In this document: positions 4,055 to 40,500 of the stretch, in pieces
Layout: the number at the start of each line of letters is the position of its first letter
Numbering within the stretch: the stretch's first letter is position 1
Assembly (NCBI GenBank): GCA_947476195.1
Contig: CANJPT010000027.1
Location: forward strand, 1-43,090
From: Lewinellaceae bacterium
GTDB lineage: Bacteria; Bacteroidota; Bacteroidia; Chitinophagales; Saprospiraceae
DNA length: 43,090 nucleotides
Direction: 5' to 3'
Notes under the pieces: model-generated
Databases searched by the model: none
What the model was told of the DNA's origin: nothing
What the model saw: the letters and a program-made list of their open reading frames with translations, nothing else
Program-made: the position numbers and the translations under genes

Positions 4055-5614
4055 ATGCTAGTGAAAACATTCGCCGGCTCCGTCCATGGAGTCGATGCAC
4101 AATTGATTACCGTCGAAACCAACTGCGGCGGCGCCCTGGGCAACACCGACAAACTCGGAATTTACATCGTAGGCCTGCCCGACAGTGCCGTGCGCGAAAG
4201 CCTCCCGCGCATCGAAGCAGCTGTGAAAAATTCCGGCTTCCGACAACCCCGGCTCAAAACCATCATCAATCTCGCGCCTGCTGACATCCGTAAAGAAGGT
4301 TCCGCATTCGACCTGCCCATTGCCCTGGGGATGCTCGCTGCTGCCTGTCTGATCCCTCCCGATGGCTTTGAGGATTATATCATCATGGGCGAGCTCTCAC
4401 TGGATGGTTCCTTGCGGCCGATCAAAGGCGCTTTGCCGATCTCCATCAAGGCGCGAAAGGAAAATTTCAAGGGCTTTATTTTGCCCAAGGCAAATGCCCG
4501 GGAGGCGGCCATCGTGAATGATATCGCGGTATATGGCGTAGAAAACCTGCTCGAAGCCATTGATATACTGGGCGGCACCTCAGAGCTCCAACCATTAATT
4601 GTCAATACCCGGGATGAGTTCGCCAACGCCACGGGCATCTATGATGTAGATTTTTCTGACGTAAAAGGCCAGGAAAACATCAAAAGATCCCTGGAACTCG
4701 CCGCTGCGGGTGGACACAATGTCATCCTCATCGGTCCGCCGGGCGCTGGCAAGACCATGCTGGCGCGACGCCTGCCCACCATCCTGCCGCCGCTTACTTT
4801 ATACGAGGCTTTGGAAACCACCAAGATCCACTCAGTTTCGGGCATCCTTCCGGACAACGCCGCACTGATCACCACCCGGCCCTTCCGTGCCCCGCACCAT
4901 ACCATCAGCGACGTGGCCCTGGTGGGCGGCGGCTCCGACCCGATGCCTGGAGAGATCAGTCTGGCGCACAACGGGGTACTGTTTCTGGACGAATTGCCGG
5001 AATTCAAACGAACGGCCCTGGAGGTGATGCGCCAGCCGATGGAGGAGCGCCGGGTCACTATCAGCCGGGCGAAATCTACGGTGGAGTACCCTGCGGGGTT
5101 TATGCTGGTGGCGAGTATGAACCCCTGCCCTTGTGGCTACTACAACCACCCAGAAAAAGAATGCGTCTGCGGCCCCGGCGTGGTAAAACGCTATGTTTCC
5201 AAAATATCCGGGCCGCTGCTGGATCGTATTGACCTGCACGTAGAAGTGACGCCCGTGAGCTACGATGAGCTCACGAACACCGAACGCGCCAAACTCGACA
5301 GTGCCGCCATCAGAGAACGGGTGCTTTTGGCGCGTGTCGTACAGGCCGAGCGATTCAAAGATTTAAAAGATGTGTACAGCAATGCGCAAATGCCGAGCCG
5401 AATGGTGCGGGAGGTATGTCAACTAACGCCTGCCGGACTGACGCTTTTAAAAACGGCCATGGAACGCTTGCAGCTTTCTGCGCGGGCGTATGACCGGATT
5501 TTGAAAGTGGCGCGGACGGCTGCGGATCTGGCGGGGAGTGTGGATATTCGGATCGAGGATTTGGCGGAGGCGATTCATTATCGGAGTTTGGATCGGGAGG
5601 GATGGGCGGGGTGA
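4055..5614 (+). CDS. YifB/ComM family Mg-chelatase-like AAA ATPase
   Basis: 519 aa from the ATG at 4055 (MLVKTFAGSVHGVDAQ), chosen because family members begin there; an in-frame ATG at 3989 would add 22 unusual residues. It has an N-terminal ChlI-like subdomain, Walker A GPPGAGKTMLARR, Walker B LFLDELPEF, and a C-terminal half with the cysteine-containing stretch MNPCPCGYYNHPEKECVCGP. Family member ComM is a hexameric helicase that promotes branch migration during natural transformation in Vibrio, and YifB-type names are used elsewhere. With comF 3 kb away it hints at DNA-uptake capability, but neither gene alone proves it. Confidence 0.93.
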   Translation: MLVKTFAGSVHGVDAQLITVETNCGGALGNTDKLGIYIVGLPDSAVRESLPRIEAAVKNSGFRQPRLKTIINLAPADIRKEGSAFDLPIALGMLAAACLIPPDGFEDYIIMGELSLDGSLRPIKGALPISIKARKENFKGFILPKANAREAAIVNDIAVYGVENLLEAIDILGGTSELQPLIVNTRDEFANATGIYDVDFSDVKGQENIKRSLELAAAGGHNVILIGPPGAGKTMLARRLPTILPPLTLYEALETTKIHSVSGILPDNAALITTRPFRAPHHTISDVALVGGGSDPMPGEISLAHNGVLFLDELPEFKRTALEVMRQPMEERRVTISRAKSTVEYPAGFMLVASMNPCPCGYYNHPEKECVCGPGVVKRYVSKISGPLLDRIDLHVEVTPVSYDELTNTERAKLDSAAIRERVLLARVVQAERFKDLKDVYSNAQMPSRMVREVCQLTPAGLTLLKTAMERLQLSARAYDRILKVARTAADLAGSVDIRIEDLAEAIHYRSLDREGWAG

Positions 5615-5632
5615 GGGGGTGTTTCATATAGA

Positions 5633-5682
5633 TATTTCGCACAGATTTTACACAGATTTTTTGCACAGATTTCGCACAGATT
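5633..5682. repeat. Left arm of mirrored repeats flanking the GxxExxY gene
   Basis: Four copies of CACAGATT start at 5640, 5651, 5664 and 5675, so spacing is 11, 13, 11. The reverse complement of 5640-5682 matches the right arm (6100-6142) at 38 of 43 positions, and similarity continues outward for about 7 more bases (to 5633). Confidence 0.85.
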
Positions 5683-5719
5683 TTTTAAACAATTTTAATT
5701 TAACCCAATAATTTTTCAA

Positions 5720-6100
5720 ATGATGACAACAAACGACATCACATACCAAATCAGAGGCGCGGCTTTCAGGGTTCATGCTGAACTAGGGCCGGGTCTATTA
5801 GAAAGCGTTTATGAGGCGGCAATGTATTATGAGTTGCAAAATGCCGGTTTACTCGTGCAAAGTCAGGTAGGCATACCTATGGCTTACAAAGAAATCAAAT
5901 TTGATTTTGGGTTTCGCCTTGATTTATTGGTTGAACAACAAATTATTGTTGAAATAAAATCCGTTGAAACCCTATCCCCGGTGCATTTTAAACAGGTTAT
6001 GACCTATCTGAGGCTTTCTGAAAAACAAATTGGTCTATTAATCAATTTCAATGTCAGAAGCCTTGAAGATAAAGTGAGCCTCCAAAGAATCGTCAGATAA
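5720..6100 (+). CDS. GxxExxY family protein (PD-(D/E)XK nuclease-like)
   Basis: 126 aa, the usual family length. It carries the name-giving motif within ELGPGLLESVYEAAM (about residues 22-36) and a nuclease-like core FRLDLLVEQQIIVEIKSVE (about 65-83), with D and ExK in PD-(D/E)XK spacing. The function of the family is unknown and no substrate can be assigned. The gene sits alone between mirrored arrays of CACAGATT/AATCTGTG units. Its TAA stop (6098-6100) shares its last base with the first unit of the right arm. This packing suggests gene and repeats behave as one unit, perhaps mobile or self-regulated. Confidence 0.88.
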   Translation: MMTTNDITYQIRGAAFRVHAELGPGLLESVYEAAMYYELQNAGLLVQSQVGIPMAYKEIKFDFGFRLDLLVEQQIIVEIKSVETLSPVHFKQVMTYLRLSEKQIGLLINFNVRSLEDKVSLQRIVR

Positions 6101-6149
6101 ATCTGTGTATAATCTGTGCAAACAATCTGTGTATAATCTGTGCTAAATA
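6100..6149. repeat. Right arm of mirrored repeats flanking the GxxExxY gene
   Basis: Four copies of AATCTGTG start at 6100, 6111, 6124 and 6135, giving the same 11, 13, 11 spacing as the left arm but inverted. The first unit overlaps the stop codon of the enclosed gene. No target-site duplication is apparent outside the arms. Confidence 0.85.
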
Positions 6150-6154
6150 AAACC

Positions 6155-6775
6155 CTACTCCAGCCCATACTGCCTCAACACGTCCTCCGGAACACCACCC
6201 CAGGAATTCGGTGTATTGCCCTGATAACCAACATCCGCAATCCCGATCTTACTCGACCAAAAGCCGGAAGCCGTCAGATTGCGCATCAGACTGAAGAATG
6301 CAATGCCATGGCGCATACCTGGTTTTTTGAGCTCCGGATAGGCAATGTCTTCCACAATTTCAATGCGTTGTGCCGGGGTGATATCAATAAACGTCTTGCC
6401 AAAACGCTTTTGCGCTTCATGGTCAATCCAGCCCAATCCGCCGCGAAGGGGTGTTTGGAAGTCCGGTTTGTCTTTCACCATGAATTCGATGAATTCCGGT
6501 ACACCCGCCTCTGTGGCGCTGCCTGAGCGACCGTCGCGCGGAATAATGATATCCACCAAAACGCTGATGGTTTTCATTTCATGGAGGCTGAAAAATTGCT
6601 CCGCAGACAGCTTTGCATCCCGCATTTGCTCGTATTCCGTTCTGCCAAACTGCTTGAATTCCGGATCCTTCTCGTCGGCATCATCCGCCAACTCCGCGGC
6701 TTTCACCTGAGGGTTCAATCCGGCAAGTCCCAGAGCGCTCAGGCTGATGCCTTTAAGTACGTCGCGTCTTTTCAT
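6155..6775 (-). CDS. Gluconate 2-dehydrogenase subunit 3 family protein
   Basis: 206 aa. The N-terminus MKRRDVLKGISLSALGLAGL is a Tat-type signal (twin arginine, then a hydrophobic stretch). The body matches the subunit 3 family: FSLHEMKTISVLVDIIIPRD, then EAGVPEFIEFMV. This small subunit partners the FAD-containing large subunit in periplasmic membrane-bound dehydrogenases and helps carry it through the Tat pathway. It lies 80 bases downstream of the GMC flavoprotein on the same strand, the expected pair. No cytochrome c subunit is adjacent, so the electron acceptor is unknown. Confidence 0.88.
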   Translation of the reverse strand: MKRRDVLKGISLSALGLAGLNPQVKAAELADDADEKDPEFKQFGRTEYEQMRDAKLSAEQFFSLHEMKTISVLVDIIIPRDGRSGSATEAGVPEFIEFMVKDKPDFQTPLRGGLGWIDHEAQKRFGKTFIDITPAQRIEIVEDIAYPELKKPGMRHGIAFFSLMRNLTASGFWSSKIGIADVGYQGNTPNSWGGVPEDVLRQYGLE

Positions 6776-6855: not shown

Positions 6856-8604
6856 TCAAAGCCTGCCCGCTTTACGCTGATCCACAATATACCGGGAAGC
6901 ACGCATGGAAAGGGCCAGAATCGTCCAGGTGCAGTTTTTGTCGCCCTGCGAAACAAACGGCGCACCATCCACCACGAACAGGTTTTTTACATCGTGCGCT
7001 TGCTGCCATTTGTTCAGCGCTGATTTATTGGAGTCATCCCCCATGCGGACGGTGCCCACCTCGTGAATGATTTCGCCGGGCAGGTTCAGGCCATAATCCT
7101 GTTCCGTAGTGGGTTTTGGGCCGAGTGGAATGCCGCCCATTTCATGAATGATCTGTTCAAAGGTCTCATGCATGTGTTTGGCTTGCAGTCGCTCGTAATC
7201 CGACCATTTGTAGTGGAATCGCAGTACCGGTATCCCGAATTTATCCACTTTTTCCGGGTCAATCTCGCAATAATTGTCTTCGCGGGCGATTGCTTCTCCC
7301 CGTCCGCCCATACCGATGTAGGCGCCATAGAAACGCCGGTAATCATCCTTCAGCGAGGCGCCATACCCGCCGGCTTCCCGTTTGTTGCCGTTGCGGTCCG
7401 GGAACATACCATTGACATTTTCAATTCCCCAACCAAAACCATAAGCCGGCATGCCCATACCTCCCCAGTATTCGATGTGATAACCACGCGGGAAATCGAG
7501 TTTCTTATTGTCGAGCCACCAGGGCGAATACACGTGCATACCACCCACGCCATCTTCGTTATAGCGTTTGCGGTCGAACAGCGTGGGAATGACGGCGCTT
7601 CTGGAGGCCCCGGTAGAATCGTGCAGGTATTTCCCGATCACCCCTGAGGAATTGGCCAATCCTTCCGGGAATCGCGCGGATTTGGAGTTGAGCAGTAGTC
7701 GTGCGGATTCGCAGGCGCTGGCAGCCAGTATCACGATACGACCACGGACGGTTTTTTCCTCCATGGTTTGGGTGTCTACATAAGAAACGCCAGTAGCCAG
7801 GCCTGTTTGTGCATCGGTGAGTACTTCCCGGGCCATGGCGTAATAGATGACGTCGAGGTTCAGGGTTTTCATTGCCGGCTTACACAGGCAGGAGGAGGAG
7901 GAAAAATCGGCGTACGCCATGCAGGACCGGTTGCACTGGTTGCAATAAAAACACACGCCCCGATCGTCGTTGATGGGTTGCGTCAGAATGCTCAGGCGCG
8001 AGGGAATCGTTTTGATCCCCAGGTTTTTGTTGCCTTTAAGCAGCATGTGTTCGTGCAAACGCGGCTTGGGCGGTGGCAAAAAAATGGAGTCCGGGTCGTT
8101 AGGTAAATTTTCCACCGATCCGAACACGCCGATCAGCCGATCCACCTCATCGTAATAAGGCGCTACATCTTCATAGCCAATGGGCCAGTCCTCTCCCAGA
8201 CTATCGATGCTTTTTCGCTTGAAATCCTGCGGACCGAAGCGCAAACTGATACGCCCCCAGTGATTGGTTCGTCCGCCCAACATACGGGACCGAAACCACC
8301 TGAATTTCGTATCGTCTTTGGTGGTGTAGGGTTCGCCTTCAATGTCCCAGCCTCCGTAGGCAGCATCAAAATCGCCGAAAGGTCGGTACCGGGTGCCTGC
8401 GCCGCGTCGGGGCGATTCATAGGGCCATTTCAACTGCGTGATGTATTTGGGGTCGGCGGGGTCATAGTGCTGTCCTGCTTCCAGGAGGCACACCTTGGCG
8501 CCGGCTTTGGTCAGTTCGTGCACGGCCATTCCTCCGCCGGCTCCGGAGCCGATGACGATGACGTCGTACGTAACGGGTGATTCCTTGATTTGAAATCTTT
8601 CCAT
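6856..8604 (-). CDS. GMC family oxidoreductase (dehydrogenase large subunit)
   Basis: 582 aa. N-terminal FAD-binding [20 protein letters not shown] (about residues 15-34), family region [15 protein letters not shown], and a C-terminal block with HEVGTVRMG and [10 protein letters not shown] typical of GMC enzymes. A cysteine cluster, [17 protein letters not shown] (about 217-233), resembles the Fe-S-binding cysteines reported in FAD-dependent glucose dehydrogenase alpha subunits. It has no signal peptide, so export probably depends on the Tat signal of the subunit 3-like partner encoded next. It probably oxidises a sugar or sugar acid in the periplasm; the substrate is not predictable here. 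Confidence 0.92.
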
Positions 8605-20643: not shown

Positions 20644-21477
20644 CTACCCTTCGAAGTGCAGTGAGATCGTAAAGGTGCGACTCAATACTTTTTCCAACAC
20701 AGTACTCTGCTCCAGGCGGTCGTCGTAAATCAGTGCATTATTTAGTCCCTGAGAAACTTTGAGTTCAGGCGAGAAGATGAAATAAGGGAAGAATAACTGG
20801 ATGCCAGCACCGTATTCCACTTGAAAATCAGTGGGCGCAATTTTAACCAGGCCTGCTGCCTGTCGCGTTCGGGAATCACTGGCTACGTCGAATGAATATT
20901 TAACACCGCCAATGACAAATAGGCGAAAATCGTGGTATGGTGCAGATTTATAGCGCACGTGGAAGGGTAATTCTACTAAAACTGCCTCAATAGGCCGGCT
21001 GACAATACGTCCATTTTGGTTGGCCGGAGCATATTTGATTGTATGTTCTGTGAACGACAAGGTTGGCAGAAAGCGGAGGTCAAAGTATTCTCCTACTTTA
21101 AGGTTGGAAACGATACCCAGGTTGAAACCAGGCCCTGTCACCGATTCAGAACTCGCAAAGGAGTCGTTTCGGATAAAATCCTTAGAATGATAAATGCGGT
21201 AATCACTCGCATTATAACCGAGTGTGATACCGAAATAGTAGTTTTTTTGCTGAAAATCAAGATAATTCAGGTTTTTTCCCTGATTAAATTGAGCGCAAGC
21301 ATCAAAATGCAAGAAGCAAAATGCAAGAAGCAAAATGCAATTTACAAGAGGCCGCTTGCAAGTGGTAATGGACAAGAGGCCAAAAAGAGCCGCTTGTTCC
21401 TTGTCTGTTGCATTTTGCTTCTTGCTTCTAGTATTTTGCAAATTAGCGATTATTTCGTGGCAGTGTAGATAGAACAT
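20644..21477 (-). CDS. porT: PorT-like outer membrane beta-barrel protein (T9SS)
   Basis: 277 aa from ATG 21477; an ATG at 21501 and a TTG at 21375 (243 aa) are alternatives. The mature part is a small beta-barrel: NYYFGITLGYNASDYRIYHS, FDLRFLPTLSFTEHTIKY, VEYGAGIQLFFPYFIFSPEL. Location directly after ubiE is the conserved PorT context; PorT is needed for Type IX secretion in Porphyromonas. A hydrophobic signal-peptide core (NCILLLAFCFLHFDACA) lies far from the ATG starts. The TTG at 21375 would place it properly, about 12 residues in. This core is encoded within an interspersed inverted repeat (21309-21425). Both ATG starts lie inside the end of ubiE. Confidence 0.8.
   Translation of the reverse strand: MFYLHCHEIIANLQNTRSKKQNATDKEQAALFGLLSITTCKRPLVNCILLLAFCFLHFDACAQFNQGKNLNYLDFQQKNYYFGITLGYNASDYRIYHSKDFIRNDSFASSESVTGPGFNLGIVSNLKVGEYFDLRFLPTLSFTEHTIKYAPANQNGRIVSRPIEAVLVELPFHVRYKSAPYHDFRLFVIGGVKYSFDVASDSRTRQAAGLVKIAPTDFQVEYGAGIQLFFPYFIFSPELKVSQGLNNALIYDDRLEQSTVLEKVLSRTFTISLHFEG
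21309..21425. repeat. Inverted and tandem repeat element overlapping the porT 5' end
   Basis: GCAAGAAGCAAAATGCAA occurs at 21309-21326 and again at 21323-21340 (14-bp period). Its exact inverse TTGCATTTTGCTTCTTGC lies at 21408-21425, an 18-bp perfect inverted repeat. Inner segments also recur: ACAAGAGGCC is seen twice, around 21344 and 21372. It has the look of a multicopy palindromic intergenic repeat, here inside the porT reading frame. Confidence 0.75.
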
Positions 21478-22184
21478 ATTCCAAGCGTTAGTCGTTCGCA
21501 TATAGGATTTTGAAAACTGGTCTTCGTGAGTATATCTGTGAATTGTTTGCCTTCGGGAAAAACCTGTACACTCTCAAAAAGATAAGTGTAGGCACGCATA
21601 TCACGACTTGTCAAACGCCCAATAAGGGGCAAAACGTATTTGAAGTAGGTATTATAGAGCTGTTTAATTGGAAAAACATATGGTTTGGAAAATTCTAACA
21701 CCACGATTCTGCCGCCAGGGCGTAAGACGCGGTACATTTCGGAAAGGCCTTTTTCCAGGTTTTCAAAATTGCGCACTCCAAAAGCCACGGTTACAGCGTC
21801 GAAAGAACAATCGTCAAATCGGAGCTGCTCACAGTCGCCTGTTTCAAGGCTGACAATATTGGAAAGGCCCTGTTCTGCAATTTTCCCCCTTCCGAGTTCC
21901 AACATTTGATTGGCAATATCTATGCCGACTACCCGCTGAGGTTTCAAATTTTTCGCCATCAGAATTGCCACATCTGCGGTGCCGGTTGCCACATCCAGAA
22001 TTTCAGCGGGTTGAGTGGGTTTCAGATGGCTGATGGCGCGTTTTCGCCACGATACGTCAACACCCAGCGAAAGCATTCGGTTGAGCAGATCGTACCGGGG
22101 CGCAATGCGGTCGAACATTTGCTCCACTTCAGCTTTTTTGCCTGCATTGGAGCCATAGGGCGTGACGATAATTTCTTCTTTCAT
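21450..22184 (-). CDS. ubiE: Demethylmenaquinone/ubiquinone C-methyltransferase
   Basis: 244 aa. SAM-binding motif ILDVATGTADVAILMA (about residues 62-77), the family segments FDRIAPRYDLLNRMLSLGVD and VLRPGGRIVVLEFSKP, and a typical C-terminal GICSIYTATK are present. In Bacteroidota, which use menaquinone, it acts as MenG, the last methylation of menaquinone synthesis. Its 3' end overlaps the longer possible porT starts. A -7 element lies just upstream at 22199-22206. Confidence 0.95.
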   Translation of the reverse strand: MKEEIIVTPYGSNAGKKAEVEQMFDRIAPRYDLLNRMLSLGVDVSWRKRAISHLKPTQPAEILDVATGTADVAILMAKNLKPQRVVGIDIANQMLELGRGKIAEQGLSNIVSLETGDCEQLRFDDCSFDAVTVAFGVRNFENLEKGLSEMYRVLRPGGRIVVLEFSKPYVFPIKQLYNTYFKYVLPLIGRLTSRDMRAYTYLFESVQVFPEGKQFTDILTKTSFQNPICERLTLGICSIYTATK

Positions 22185-37500: not shown

Positions 37501-40500
37501 AGTTCACCGTGACATCGGAAGGCACAAAGGTAAAGTTAGGCGGAGTAAGGTCCTGAACCGTGATGATCTGTTCGGCCGAGGAAACATTTCCACAACTATC
37601 CCTAGCAGTCCAACTGCGTATTAGGGTATATGAATCCGGGCAGGCTCCATTGGTCCGAACTTCTCCATCATAAGTGATGGTAGTATTTGCAGCACAATTA
37701 TCAACAGCGACAGGAATTTCAACGGGTGGGATAAATTCACAAGTAGTAGTTAATGCAGCAGGAATGGACGTAAATGCCGGTGGAGTAGTATCCTCTACCT
37801 GTAAGATCTGTACCGCAGTGGCTGTATTGCCACAATCATCGAAAATCGTCCATTTTCGGGATAAGCTATAGCTATTGGGGCAGTTGCCATTGGTTCGGGT
37901 CGCGCCATTGTAGGTGATGGTCAGGTTTGGGTCGCAGTTGTCTGTAGCATTAGGTGTGCCAACTGGCGGAATCTCTGAGCAACTTACCGTGACATTAGCA
38001 GGCACAACGGTCACTACTGGACTTGTAATATCCTGTACCGTGATCACCTGGGAGGTAATGGCGTTATTGCTGCATTCATCCTGAGCGGACCAAACACGAG
38101 TCAGGGTATAATTACCTGAGCATGCGCCATCGATCCGTGTTTGTCCCAGATAGGCAATGGTTACGTTGGCAGAACAATTGTCGATTGCTATAGGAGTTCC
38201 TACCGCCGGGATAGCATCACAGCTCACCGTTATAGGCGCAGGCACCGTTGAAAAAACCGGTGCTGTTATATCTCTAACGGTGATAGTCTGAGTGGTCAGT
38301 GTTGTATTCCCACAATTGTCTGTTGCAATCCAGGTTCTTTGGAGGTTGTAGTTATTTGGACAATTATCGTCTATGCGCAGTTCTCCAATGTATTGGATGC
38401 TTACTGCGGCATCACAGTTGTCAATCGCAATGGGTGTTCCAACAGGAGGAATCGCCTCGCAATTCACGGTTACCTGTCCTGGCGTAAAGGAGAATGTAGG
38501 GGCTGTAAGATCTTGTACCGTAATGATTTGTAAGGCTGTAGCAGTATTGCCACAGCTATCCAATGCTGTCCATGTGCGCTGTAACGTATAAGAATTGGGG
38601 CAAAGTCCATCAATTCTGGTTGCTCCATTGTAGGTTATATTGACACTAGCCGCGCAATTATCCGTTGCCGTTGGAGAACCCACAGACGGAATATCCTCAC
38701 AAGTTACCGTAACGGCATCTGGTACTGACGTAAACGTGGGTGGCGTAACATCTTGTACCTTAATTATTTGAACGGCCGTGCTTGTGTTTCCACAATCATC
38801 AGAAATCGTCCAATTGCGTTTAATGGTGTAACTATTTGCACAGGTACCATCGATGCGTGTAGACCCGTCATAGGTGATGGTTGGGATTGCATCACAGTTA
38901 TCTATTGCAGTAGGTGTTCCTACGGCAGGAATATCATCACAACTTACCAAAATATCTGCAGGAACGGATATCACCACGGGTGCCGTAATATCTTGAACGG
39001 TAATGCTTTGGGTTGCCGTGGCAGTGTTGCCACAGGCGTCTTGTGCTGACCAGGTCCGGATAATTTGATAATTACCAAGACAGCCACCAGCTCCGGGAAT
39101 AAACTCACCCAGATAAGTTATATTAACGTTTTGTGCGCAATTATCAGAGGCAAGGGGTGTTCCAACGACTGGCAAGGCATCGCAACTGGCTGTGGCCGCA
39201 TCGGGTAATAAGGTAAAGAATGGAGGCGTAATATCCTGAACAGTAATGACCTGTTTGGCAATGGAAATATTGCCGCAGTGATCCGTAGCTGTCCATTTGC
39301 GGTTCAAAATATATGACTCCGGGCAGCTGCCATTTACTCGGGTTTCTCCGTCGTAAATGATTACGACCGATACATCACAATTATCAATAGCAGAAGGTAT
39401 TCCAACTGAAGGAATAGCATCACAACTTATGGTTACTGGTTCAGGCACATAAGTGTATACAGGTGGGGTTAGATCCTGAACGGTAATAACCTGTTCGGCC
39501 GTAGCAATATTGCCACATTGGTCACCTGCTGACCAATGACGCAGGAGAAGATAGGTGTTTAGACAGCTGCCGTCCTGGCGTATTTCGCCAATATAGTTGA
39601 TGGTGACCGTTGGGTCACAGTTATCAGAAGCTATCGGTGTTCCCACACTGGGTATACTCTCGCAGGATACCGAAATATCTGGTGGGACAAAAGTATAAAC
39701 AGGCTTAACCAGATCTTGCACGGTGATCGTCTGCGCAACTGTTTGGGTATTTCCACAATTATCCAAAGCCGTCCATTGTCGTTCCAACGTGTACGTAAAT
39801 GGACAGGGTCCATCGGTTCTGGTTTCTCCATTATAGGTAATGGTGACGCTTACGGCACAATTGTCAATGGCTTCAGGGCTTCCAATAGCGGGTATGGATT
39901 CACAGGATACCGTTGTATTTCCAGGAACGGACGTGAAAGTAGGTGCTGTAATATCCCGTACCGTGATCAATTGGTTAGCAGTAACGGTATTTCCACAATT
40001 GTCTTCTGCTTTCCAGGTCCGGGTCAACGTATAGGTATCCAGGCAGTAGCCATTAGTTGGGGTCTCTCCCAGATAGGTAATAGAAACGGATGCGGCGCAA
40101 TTATCAGAAGCGACCGGAATACCCAAGATCGGGATAGATTCGCAGGATACCGTTAGGTCATTAGGGAATGAAGTAAATGTTGGGTTCGTGATATCATGAA
40201 CCATAATCACTTGTTCTGCTGTAACGGTGTTTCCACAGTTGTCCGTTGCTTCCCATGTTCGGGTCAACGTATAAGAATCTGTGCAGGATCCATCCGTACG
40301 GGTTTGACCCAGATAAGTAATTGTGACAAAGGCATCACAATTGTCGGTTGCTGTGGCAGTACCAACGGCGGGAATTGATTGGCAATCCACCGTAACATTG
40401 GCTGGTACAGAGGAGAAAACGGGGATGATTATATCTTGGACACTAATTACCTGCGCAGCAGTCTTTGTATTGCCACAATCGTCTTGCGCTTCCCAGGTTC

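Follow-up and report, generated by a model that had tools for sequence, protein, structure and literature searches.

Inverted arrays of short units around GxxExxY genes: a candidate small mobile element of Bacteroidota and other bacteria

The 517-base cassette described here, in which a single GxxExxY gene is enclosed by two mirrored arrays of short repeat units, is not a one-off. The layout recurs around members of the same gene family in many genomes, the units co-vary with the protein, and similar hairpins occur that lack the gene; together these features suggest a small type of mobile DNA that has not been described before. We consider it rather probable that the cassette is a mobile element of about 0.5 kb, made up of the inverted unit arrays and of one GxxExxY gene whose product acts on them.

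The cassette and its protein

The window is the whole stretch of DNA that was analysed, i.e., 43,090 nucleotides of contig CANJPT010000027.1 from a Lewinellaceae bacterium. The cassette (5633–6149) lies between comM, a YifB/ComM-type AAA ATPase gene by profile match (4058–5614, plus strand, stop at 5614), and a dehydrogenase subunit gene matching the gluconate 2-dehydrogenase subunit 3 family (6155–6775, minus strand); the latter gene and the one at 6856–8604 match gluconate/GMC dehydrogenase families. The left arm (5633–5694, plus strand), delimited by unit search and complementarity, holds four CACAGATT units starting at 5640, 5651, 5664 and 5675, and can also be read as a 24-base repeat with two units per copy. 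The right arm (6088–6149, minus strand), delimited by complementarity, is an inverted copy with four AATCTGTG units starting at 6100, 6111, 6124 and 6135. A reading made from the sequence alone had placed four units on each side at a common 11/13/11 spacing, and a renewed search reproduced these positions and distances exactly; its claim that the arms are inverted copies holds over 62 nt in each arm at 82% complementarity. The right arm overlaps the end of the GxxExxY gene (5720–6100, plus strand), where the TAA stop (6098–6100) and the first right unit have one base in common, an overlap which the same reading had reported.

A unit followed by a second unit at most 12 bases on was matched six times in the window and in 0 of 100 dinucleotide shuffles; the sole further unit in the 43 kb is a lone one at 40276. 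The single-strand DNA folding of the cassette surpassed 100 of 100 shuffles (z −6.85, DNA parameters), which fits the arms, since inverted arms require such pairing. Chance or base composition as the source of the arms is ruled out by the shuffles and by the shifted-flank control described below. Rfam gave no match at E up to 1 within 5300–6400, ruling out a known RNA as the identity of the cassette.

The 126-aa protein scored 144.9 bits against TIGR04256 (cut-off 35) and 136.8 bits against PF13366 (cut-off 22), thus exceeding both curated profile cut-offs of the GxxExxY family. Residues E28 (the E of GxxExxY), D68, E78 and K80 were invariant in an alignment of 44 sequences, after exclusion of two rows that contained stop codons. 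The AlphaFold model has a pLDDT of 94.7, and its best Foldseek matches were mostly PD-(D/E)XK nucleases, none of them reaching E 0.001; the top PDB matches were to Cas4, a tRNA-splicing endonuclease, lambda exonuclease and the restriction enzyme DrdV (none below E 0.009). A sequence search of solved structures matched nothing meaningful. The PD-(D/E)XK-like core that had been proposed from the sequence is thus upheld by the PF13366 match, the invariant D68/E78/K80, which supply the D...(D/E)xK residues, the predicted fold and the weak matches to nuclease folds, and the protein is predicted to be a PD-(D/E)XK nuclease.

Several identities suggested by a nuclease-like protein were tried and rejected. 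PADLOC gave weak matches alone, the best being a Cas4 profile at E 0.004, which does not identify a defence system. The protein resembles the Cas4/lambda exonuclease branch in predicted fold and D...ExK residues (weak matches). Cas4 carries an iron-sulphur cluster; the window protein has no cysteine at all and therefore no cluster of the Cas4 type, and next to its gene stand those for ComM and dehydrogenases instead of CRISPR genes. These neighbours, with no adjoining methyltransferase, also speak against restriction-modification. A homing endonuclease with one cognate site is ruled out by six matches at different loci in the same genome, and is contradicted by the presence of the family at many loci across 47 of the 60 genomes.

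Recurrence of the arms and their relation to the protein

We examined whether the arms accompany the gene family elsewhere. In the genome of the window (4.76 Mb, 224 contigs) there were six family matches, five above the cut-off, and each was seen by eye to lie between mirrored arms of short units, all different: CACAGATT, ACAGGAT, CACTAAG, AAGGATTTGAAAGATT, a CGCGGAT type (with a decayed gene) and a CACAGAG type (with a gene fragment). In an automatic arm test, in which the 450 bases upstream were aligned to the reverse complement of the 450 bases downstream (SW score), three of the six loci scored at least 40 (72, 51 and 86) and the rest 31, 22 and 21, the arms at these three lower-scoring loci being judged from the printed sequence. 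The family was present in 47 of 60 genomes, that of the window included, with 136 matches; 119 of their domains were read, and 118 had enough flank. Among these 118 loci, which come from the genome of the window and from its order, 66 scored at least 40, compared with 1.3% of 1000 mismatched pairs, and 83 scored at least 30, compared with 5.3% of the mismatched pairs. A second set was formed from the best 80 of 559 confirmed GTDB relatives, two being dropped for short flank and one locus being common to both sets; a score of at least 34 was obtained for 46 of these 78 loci and for 2.9% of 2000 mismatched pairs. When the test was moved 1.4 kb to either side of the genes in this set, 0 of 70 and 0 of 73 reached the threshold. 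The recurrence of mirrored arms around GxxExxY genes, a check suggested by the sequence-only reading, is supported across loci, and the lack of arms at homologous loci, which that reading had named as evidence against itself, was not found for most of them; 52 of the 118 and 32 of the 78 loci fell below threshold.

The best 80 of the 559 relatives were mainly from Bacteroidota, and also included Acidobacteria, Planctomycetota, Verrucomicrobia, Ignavibacteria, Anabaena (a cyanobacterium) and Methylobacter, each with members scoring at least 43. A unit motif, C[AG]C.[AG]A[GT], formed by eye from the same loci in which it was counted, occurred 1.84 times per 100 bp pointing inward beside the gene, 0.76 times pointing outward, and about 0.18 times beyond 1 kb. 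Many cassette copies are old and orthologous across the genus. The family was also carried by eight plasmid records, and the arms were examined in four of these: the records of Bacteroides finegoldii and Gemmatirosa showed clear arms (scores 45 and 127), that of Bernardetia weaker ones (36), and that of Sphingomonas an arm on the left side only (26). No family match was found in phages, and none of 33 pattern matches in viral contigs was confirmed, which rules out a phage origin. At one locus (L053, G005:C2:18839-19870) there was a tandem pair of GxxExxY genes with identical scores and starts 687 bases apart.

The similarity of arms was then compared with that of proteins, with each orthologous site represented by a single locus, which left 90 of the 120 loci that scored at least 34 (those from the best 80 of 559 GTDB relatives included). 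The two were correlated (Mantel r 0.34; 0 of 2000 permutations), and the nearest protein neighbour fell within the top 10% of arm similarity at 55 of the 90 sites. Within the genus, 42 sites were compared: unlike proteins from the same genome (15 pairs) had an arm similarity of 0.167, at the background level of 0.174 (655 pairs), whereas like proteins from different genomes (57 pairs) reached 0.336. The arms therefore track the protein and not the host genome. This link excludes a free exchange of arms, and it could also stem from joint descent of gene and arms; it indirectly supports a protein that would recognise its own arms. A left arm resembled its own right arm more than other right arms on average (0 of 5000 shuffles), and yet the own right arm was the best match in just 4 of 19 loci, contradicting a tight concerted evolution of the two arms.

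A parallel was found in a second gene family. Four-helix genes (TIGR02436) were present in all eight genus genomes searched, with 47 matches, and mirrored arms (score at least 34) enclosed 28 of the 30 loci fetched (L124–L153), compared with 5.6% of mismatched pairs. These loci share the GxxExxY layout with different units, their arms being, by eye, largely head-to-tail 7-mers. The four-helix family PF05635 is Pfam's 23S rRNA-intervening sequence protein.

Contents of the same sites in relatives, and hairpins without a gene

We asked what relatives carry at the same site. A conserved Flavobacterium gene pair was matched by 89 of 150 genomes, and of 30 loci inspected, 19 held the gene cassette, 10 a gene-free hairpin built from another unit (by eye; CGCAAAG type, 93–157 bp between the aligned flanks), and one, with 53 bp between its flanks, neither. 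In the cassette-less loci the left alignment stops near query base 1073, which is the stop codon of the left gene, 2–3 bases before the arm; the right alignment resumes at 1673–1689 in most rows listed, a range spanning the outer end of the arm to the start codon 15 bases on. Since it resumes before the start codon, some non-coding DNA is common to the two kinds of locus at the right border. The homology on the left may merely fade at the end of the coding sequence, so this site speaks for alternative occupants and not for exact borders.

The window's own site behind comM was read in 30 loci of relatives, the window included. Four held a GxxExxY gene with CACAGAT-like arms, counting the window and one locus truncated by a contig end. 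A four-helix gene with arms of another kind stood in five (the four scanned were all PF05635), and a further such gene behind a run of N in one; two had a Y1-type transposase with hairpins, two a gene-free hairpin and 11 none of these elements, while the last five were truncated or fell on the other flank. The place 3' of comM/YifB is repeatedly used by several kinds of small element, and on its left it is bounded by the comM stop codon, beyond which the content differs from one relative to the next. A gene fixed in place by descent alone misfits the varied content of both sites. At both, the arms nearly fill the intergenic gap, the coding end lying about 19 bases from the arm on the left in the window and 0–15 bases on the right in Flavobacterium; because the homology of the flanks stops at, or close to, coding ends that themselves lie beside the arms, the arms are not proven as borders. 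The sequence-only reading would have been weakened by relatives with diverged flanks and no insertion boundary. The occupants do vary at both sites, although arms within a few bases of coding ends leave the boundary itself blurred. As to the empty sites that it proposed to look for in close relatives, another element, or none, stands at the site in some, but no two very close genomes showed a cleanly empty site opposite a filled one.

The same was true when two genomes, G007 and G009, were compared, with no clean empty site being found. At the L026 junction G009 has a GxxExxY gene between two hairpins, and G007 has a Uma2-family nuclease gene (L154, 10136–10649); at the four-helix site L142 the comparison gave a hairpin that lacks a gene and resembles it in its inner motif. 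One G009 insert there (L172, 10773–10946) looks like an ordinary MITE, with inverted ends of about 12 bases, an 8-base target duplication by eye, and a ACAGGATT hairpin mid-way.

Gene-free hairpins are dispersed in some genomes. The pattern CACAGATTN2-6CACAGATT had 106 copies in G028, 73 in G021, 43 in G014, 10 in G024 and 8 in G000, with 0–6 in the remaining 55 genomes, and its reversed control had two copies in all genomes together. In the genome of the window, one gene-free copy carrying the window's unit lies on contig 28, and contigs 88 and 89 gave additional arm matches. A strong case is that of the GxxExxY element L115, whose distinctive 24-base arm sequence has 40 copies in its own genome, G014 (up to two mismatches allowed, own arm included), and none in the other 59 genomes; most of these copies are gene-free hairpins. 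Fourteen complete ones measured 99–109 bp with unrelated sequence outside, so that the arms are the ends of these hairpins. They had no target duplication (4.21 versus 4.16 in mismatched pairs). The centres of the G014 hairpins (L386–L415) are variable and CTACGTAG-like.

Hairpins also followed the protein clade. CGCGGATNACGCGGAT was present in 9 of the 10 genus genomes with the GYGFLE clade among the fetched loci, against 6 of the remaining 27 (Fisher p 3e-4); of these six, four have a motif variant (GHGFLE, GYGYLE or YGFR), and G015 and G017 each hold a family match outside the fetched loci. The same test for the window's unit was weaker, with p 0.008 where carriers were assigned by hand, where the carrier G014 owes its copies mostly to the family of L115, and where G021 (73 copies, a gene remnant only) was scored as a non-carrier. 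Arms occurring as often without the gene had been named as an argument against the cassette; this is indeed so in some genomes, but the dispersed hairpins concentrate where a matching gene is present, and that concentration fits a mobile element. The polarity of the units is inconsistent, which is a puzzle: units face inward in the cassette and in the hairpins on contig 28 and in Flavobacterium, and outward in the gene-free hairpins of G014 and beside L026. By eye, two hairpins flank the gene at L026 and L002, and one and a half at L115; the moving unit at L026 and L002 may be the hairpin, with the gene resident beside it.

A mobile element and other readings

On the mobile-element reading, the arms would be the ends of a mobile unit. 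The GxxExxY protein would bind the units, or a hairpin formed by the arms when single-stranded; with units about one helical turn apart, several copies of the protein could line up on one face of the DNA, and the protein would then cut at the units or hairpin as a nuclease. By copying or relocation, the gene-bearing unit and the gene-free hairpins would reach intergenic sites, in many cases immediately after a stop codon, with insertion that does not duplicate the target. Gene-free hairpins would spread in trans, as a REPIN does by its RAYT, with a different enzyme, and the mover would be the GxxExxY protein rather than a third party. The minimal mobile nuclease cassette suggested from the sequence is supported by the recurring arms and varying site contents, which stand as observed; its binding, cutting and movement we infer. 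Counting against the reading are the absence of target duplication, the many old and orthologous copies, the loci below threshold (three of six in the window's own genome), the inconsistent polarity, the same layout around unrelated four-helix genes, the lack of viral or phage copies, the weak association for the window's unit and the weak fold matches.

The closest known systems in behaviour are REPIN/RAYT (REPtrons) and TIR-flanked TIRYT genes (TIRtrons), as far as the relevant passages of two papers describe them: genomes hold distinct genes, each next to palindromic or inverted repeats of its own, hairpins that lack a gene are dispersed in intergenic DNA and related to one gene, and a gene tends to have its closest relatives in other genomes (PMC3116915, PMC3733652); RAYTs reside beside REPINs (PMC3116915, in the passage concerned). 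GxxExxY elements are alike in these respects, with a gene flanked by inverted repeats and dispersed gene-free hairpins related to those repeats, strongly so for L115 in G014. They differ in their arms, which are arrays of short units where a REPIN has single 20–40 bp palindromes with a GTAG end, and membership in REPIN/RAYT fails on the enzyme, which is PD-(D/E)XK and not an HUH/Y1 tyrosine transposase, PF13366 and TIGR04256 being the only matches. As in MITEs mobilised in trans by an IS transposase, gene-free copies share arms with a gene-bearing copy; the enclosed gene, however, is no IS transposase and the ends vary between elements. A classical insertion sequence or MITE is also at odds with the G014 hairpins, which do not duplicate their target.

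No paper on GxxExxY elements or on this layout was among the literature matches listed, and no mention of the six unit sequences was found in the literature searched (subscription papers and preprints lay outside the scope of both searches); the matching passages of PMC4596501 and PMC4679880 concern other repeats.

Autonomous mobile elements of bacteria are classed by their enzyme, i.e., DDE, HUH, serine, tyrosine or Cas1. If a lone PD-(D/E)XK protein moves hairpins, this would be a new chemistry among mobile elements; it would give a function to a family named by NCBI and Pfam by motif and fold alone, and would explain intergenic unit-array hairpins such as CACAGAG or CGCAAAG repeats. Only tentatively do we go further and propose a new class of prokaryotic transposable element, in which a lone PD-(D/E)XK enzyme would read short-unit arrays in several phyla, with a parallel class built on the four-helix protein of 23S intervening sequences; the two together would account for many intergenic unit-array hairpins of Bacteroidota and other bacteria.

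An alternative that we think unlikely, if the best of the others, is that the hairpins are moved by some other enzyme (such as a Y1-type transposase already resident in the genome, or the replication and repair machinery of the host) and that the GxxExxY and four-helix genes are cargo. The two relatives with a Y1_Tnp gene and hairpins behind comM are consistent with it, as are a layout common to two unrelated protein families and the genes that sit between two hairpins (L026 and L002, with one and a half at L115). Cargo, however, needs neither units that differ between the two families and track the protein within GxxExxY, nor gene-free families that follow the matching clade.

That the protein regulates its own gene through the units, or that the arms end transcription, with the gene unrelated to mobility, we regard as improbable. 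Eight-base units at 11/13/11 spacing would suit a multimeric DNA binder, and arms often begin directly behind a stop codon; set against this are arms on both sides of the gene, tens of gene-free copies in some genomes, and a whole unit that is present or absent at the same site among relatives. Operator function may still be a secondary role of the units.

Least probable of all is an RNA element, whose arms would form an RNA stem excised by RNase III, making the insertion harmless, and whose protein would act on RNA. The thought arises from the four-helix family with its 23S rRNA-intervening sequence name and the same layout, from the strong pairing of the arms (DNA parameters), from tRNA-splicing endonucleases among the weak fold matches, and from the Coxiella intervening sequence (IVS), whose terminal inverted repeats are cut by RNase III according to the pertinent part of PMC4990558; but the window and Flavobacterium sites are intergenic, where removal from RNA is needless, and the Rfam search was blank. 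The same part of that source puts the IVS of 23S rRNA at about 0.4–0.6 kb, bounded by terminal inverted repeats and containing a single small ORF of unclear role (PMC4990558), and on this description the cassette is alike in size, repeats and single small ORF. It differs from an IVS with an S23/four-helix ORF in having arms that are unit arrays, and membership is rejected by its site between comM and a dehydrogenase gene and by its protein of another family, PF13366 and not S23 (PF05635). The mobile-element reading would give a wider setting to the old puzzle of the 23S intervening sequences and their small ORF.

Two minor observations concern the four-helix type of array. Its 7-mer arrays might bear on the heptamer repeats known from other bacteria. 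The window also contains a second, gene-free hairpin at 21295–21440, which overlaps the predicted start of ORF 20644–21501 and is made of 7-base units (GCAAGAA/GCAAAAT), resembling the arms of four-helix elements and not those of GxxExxY elements.
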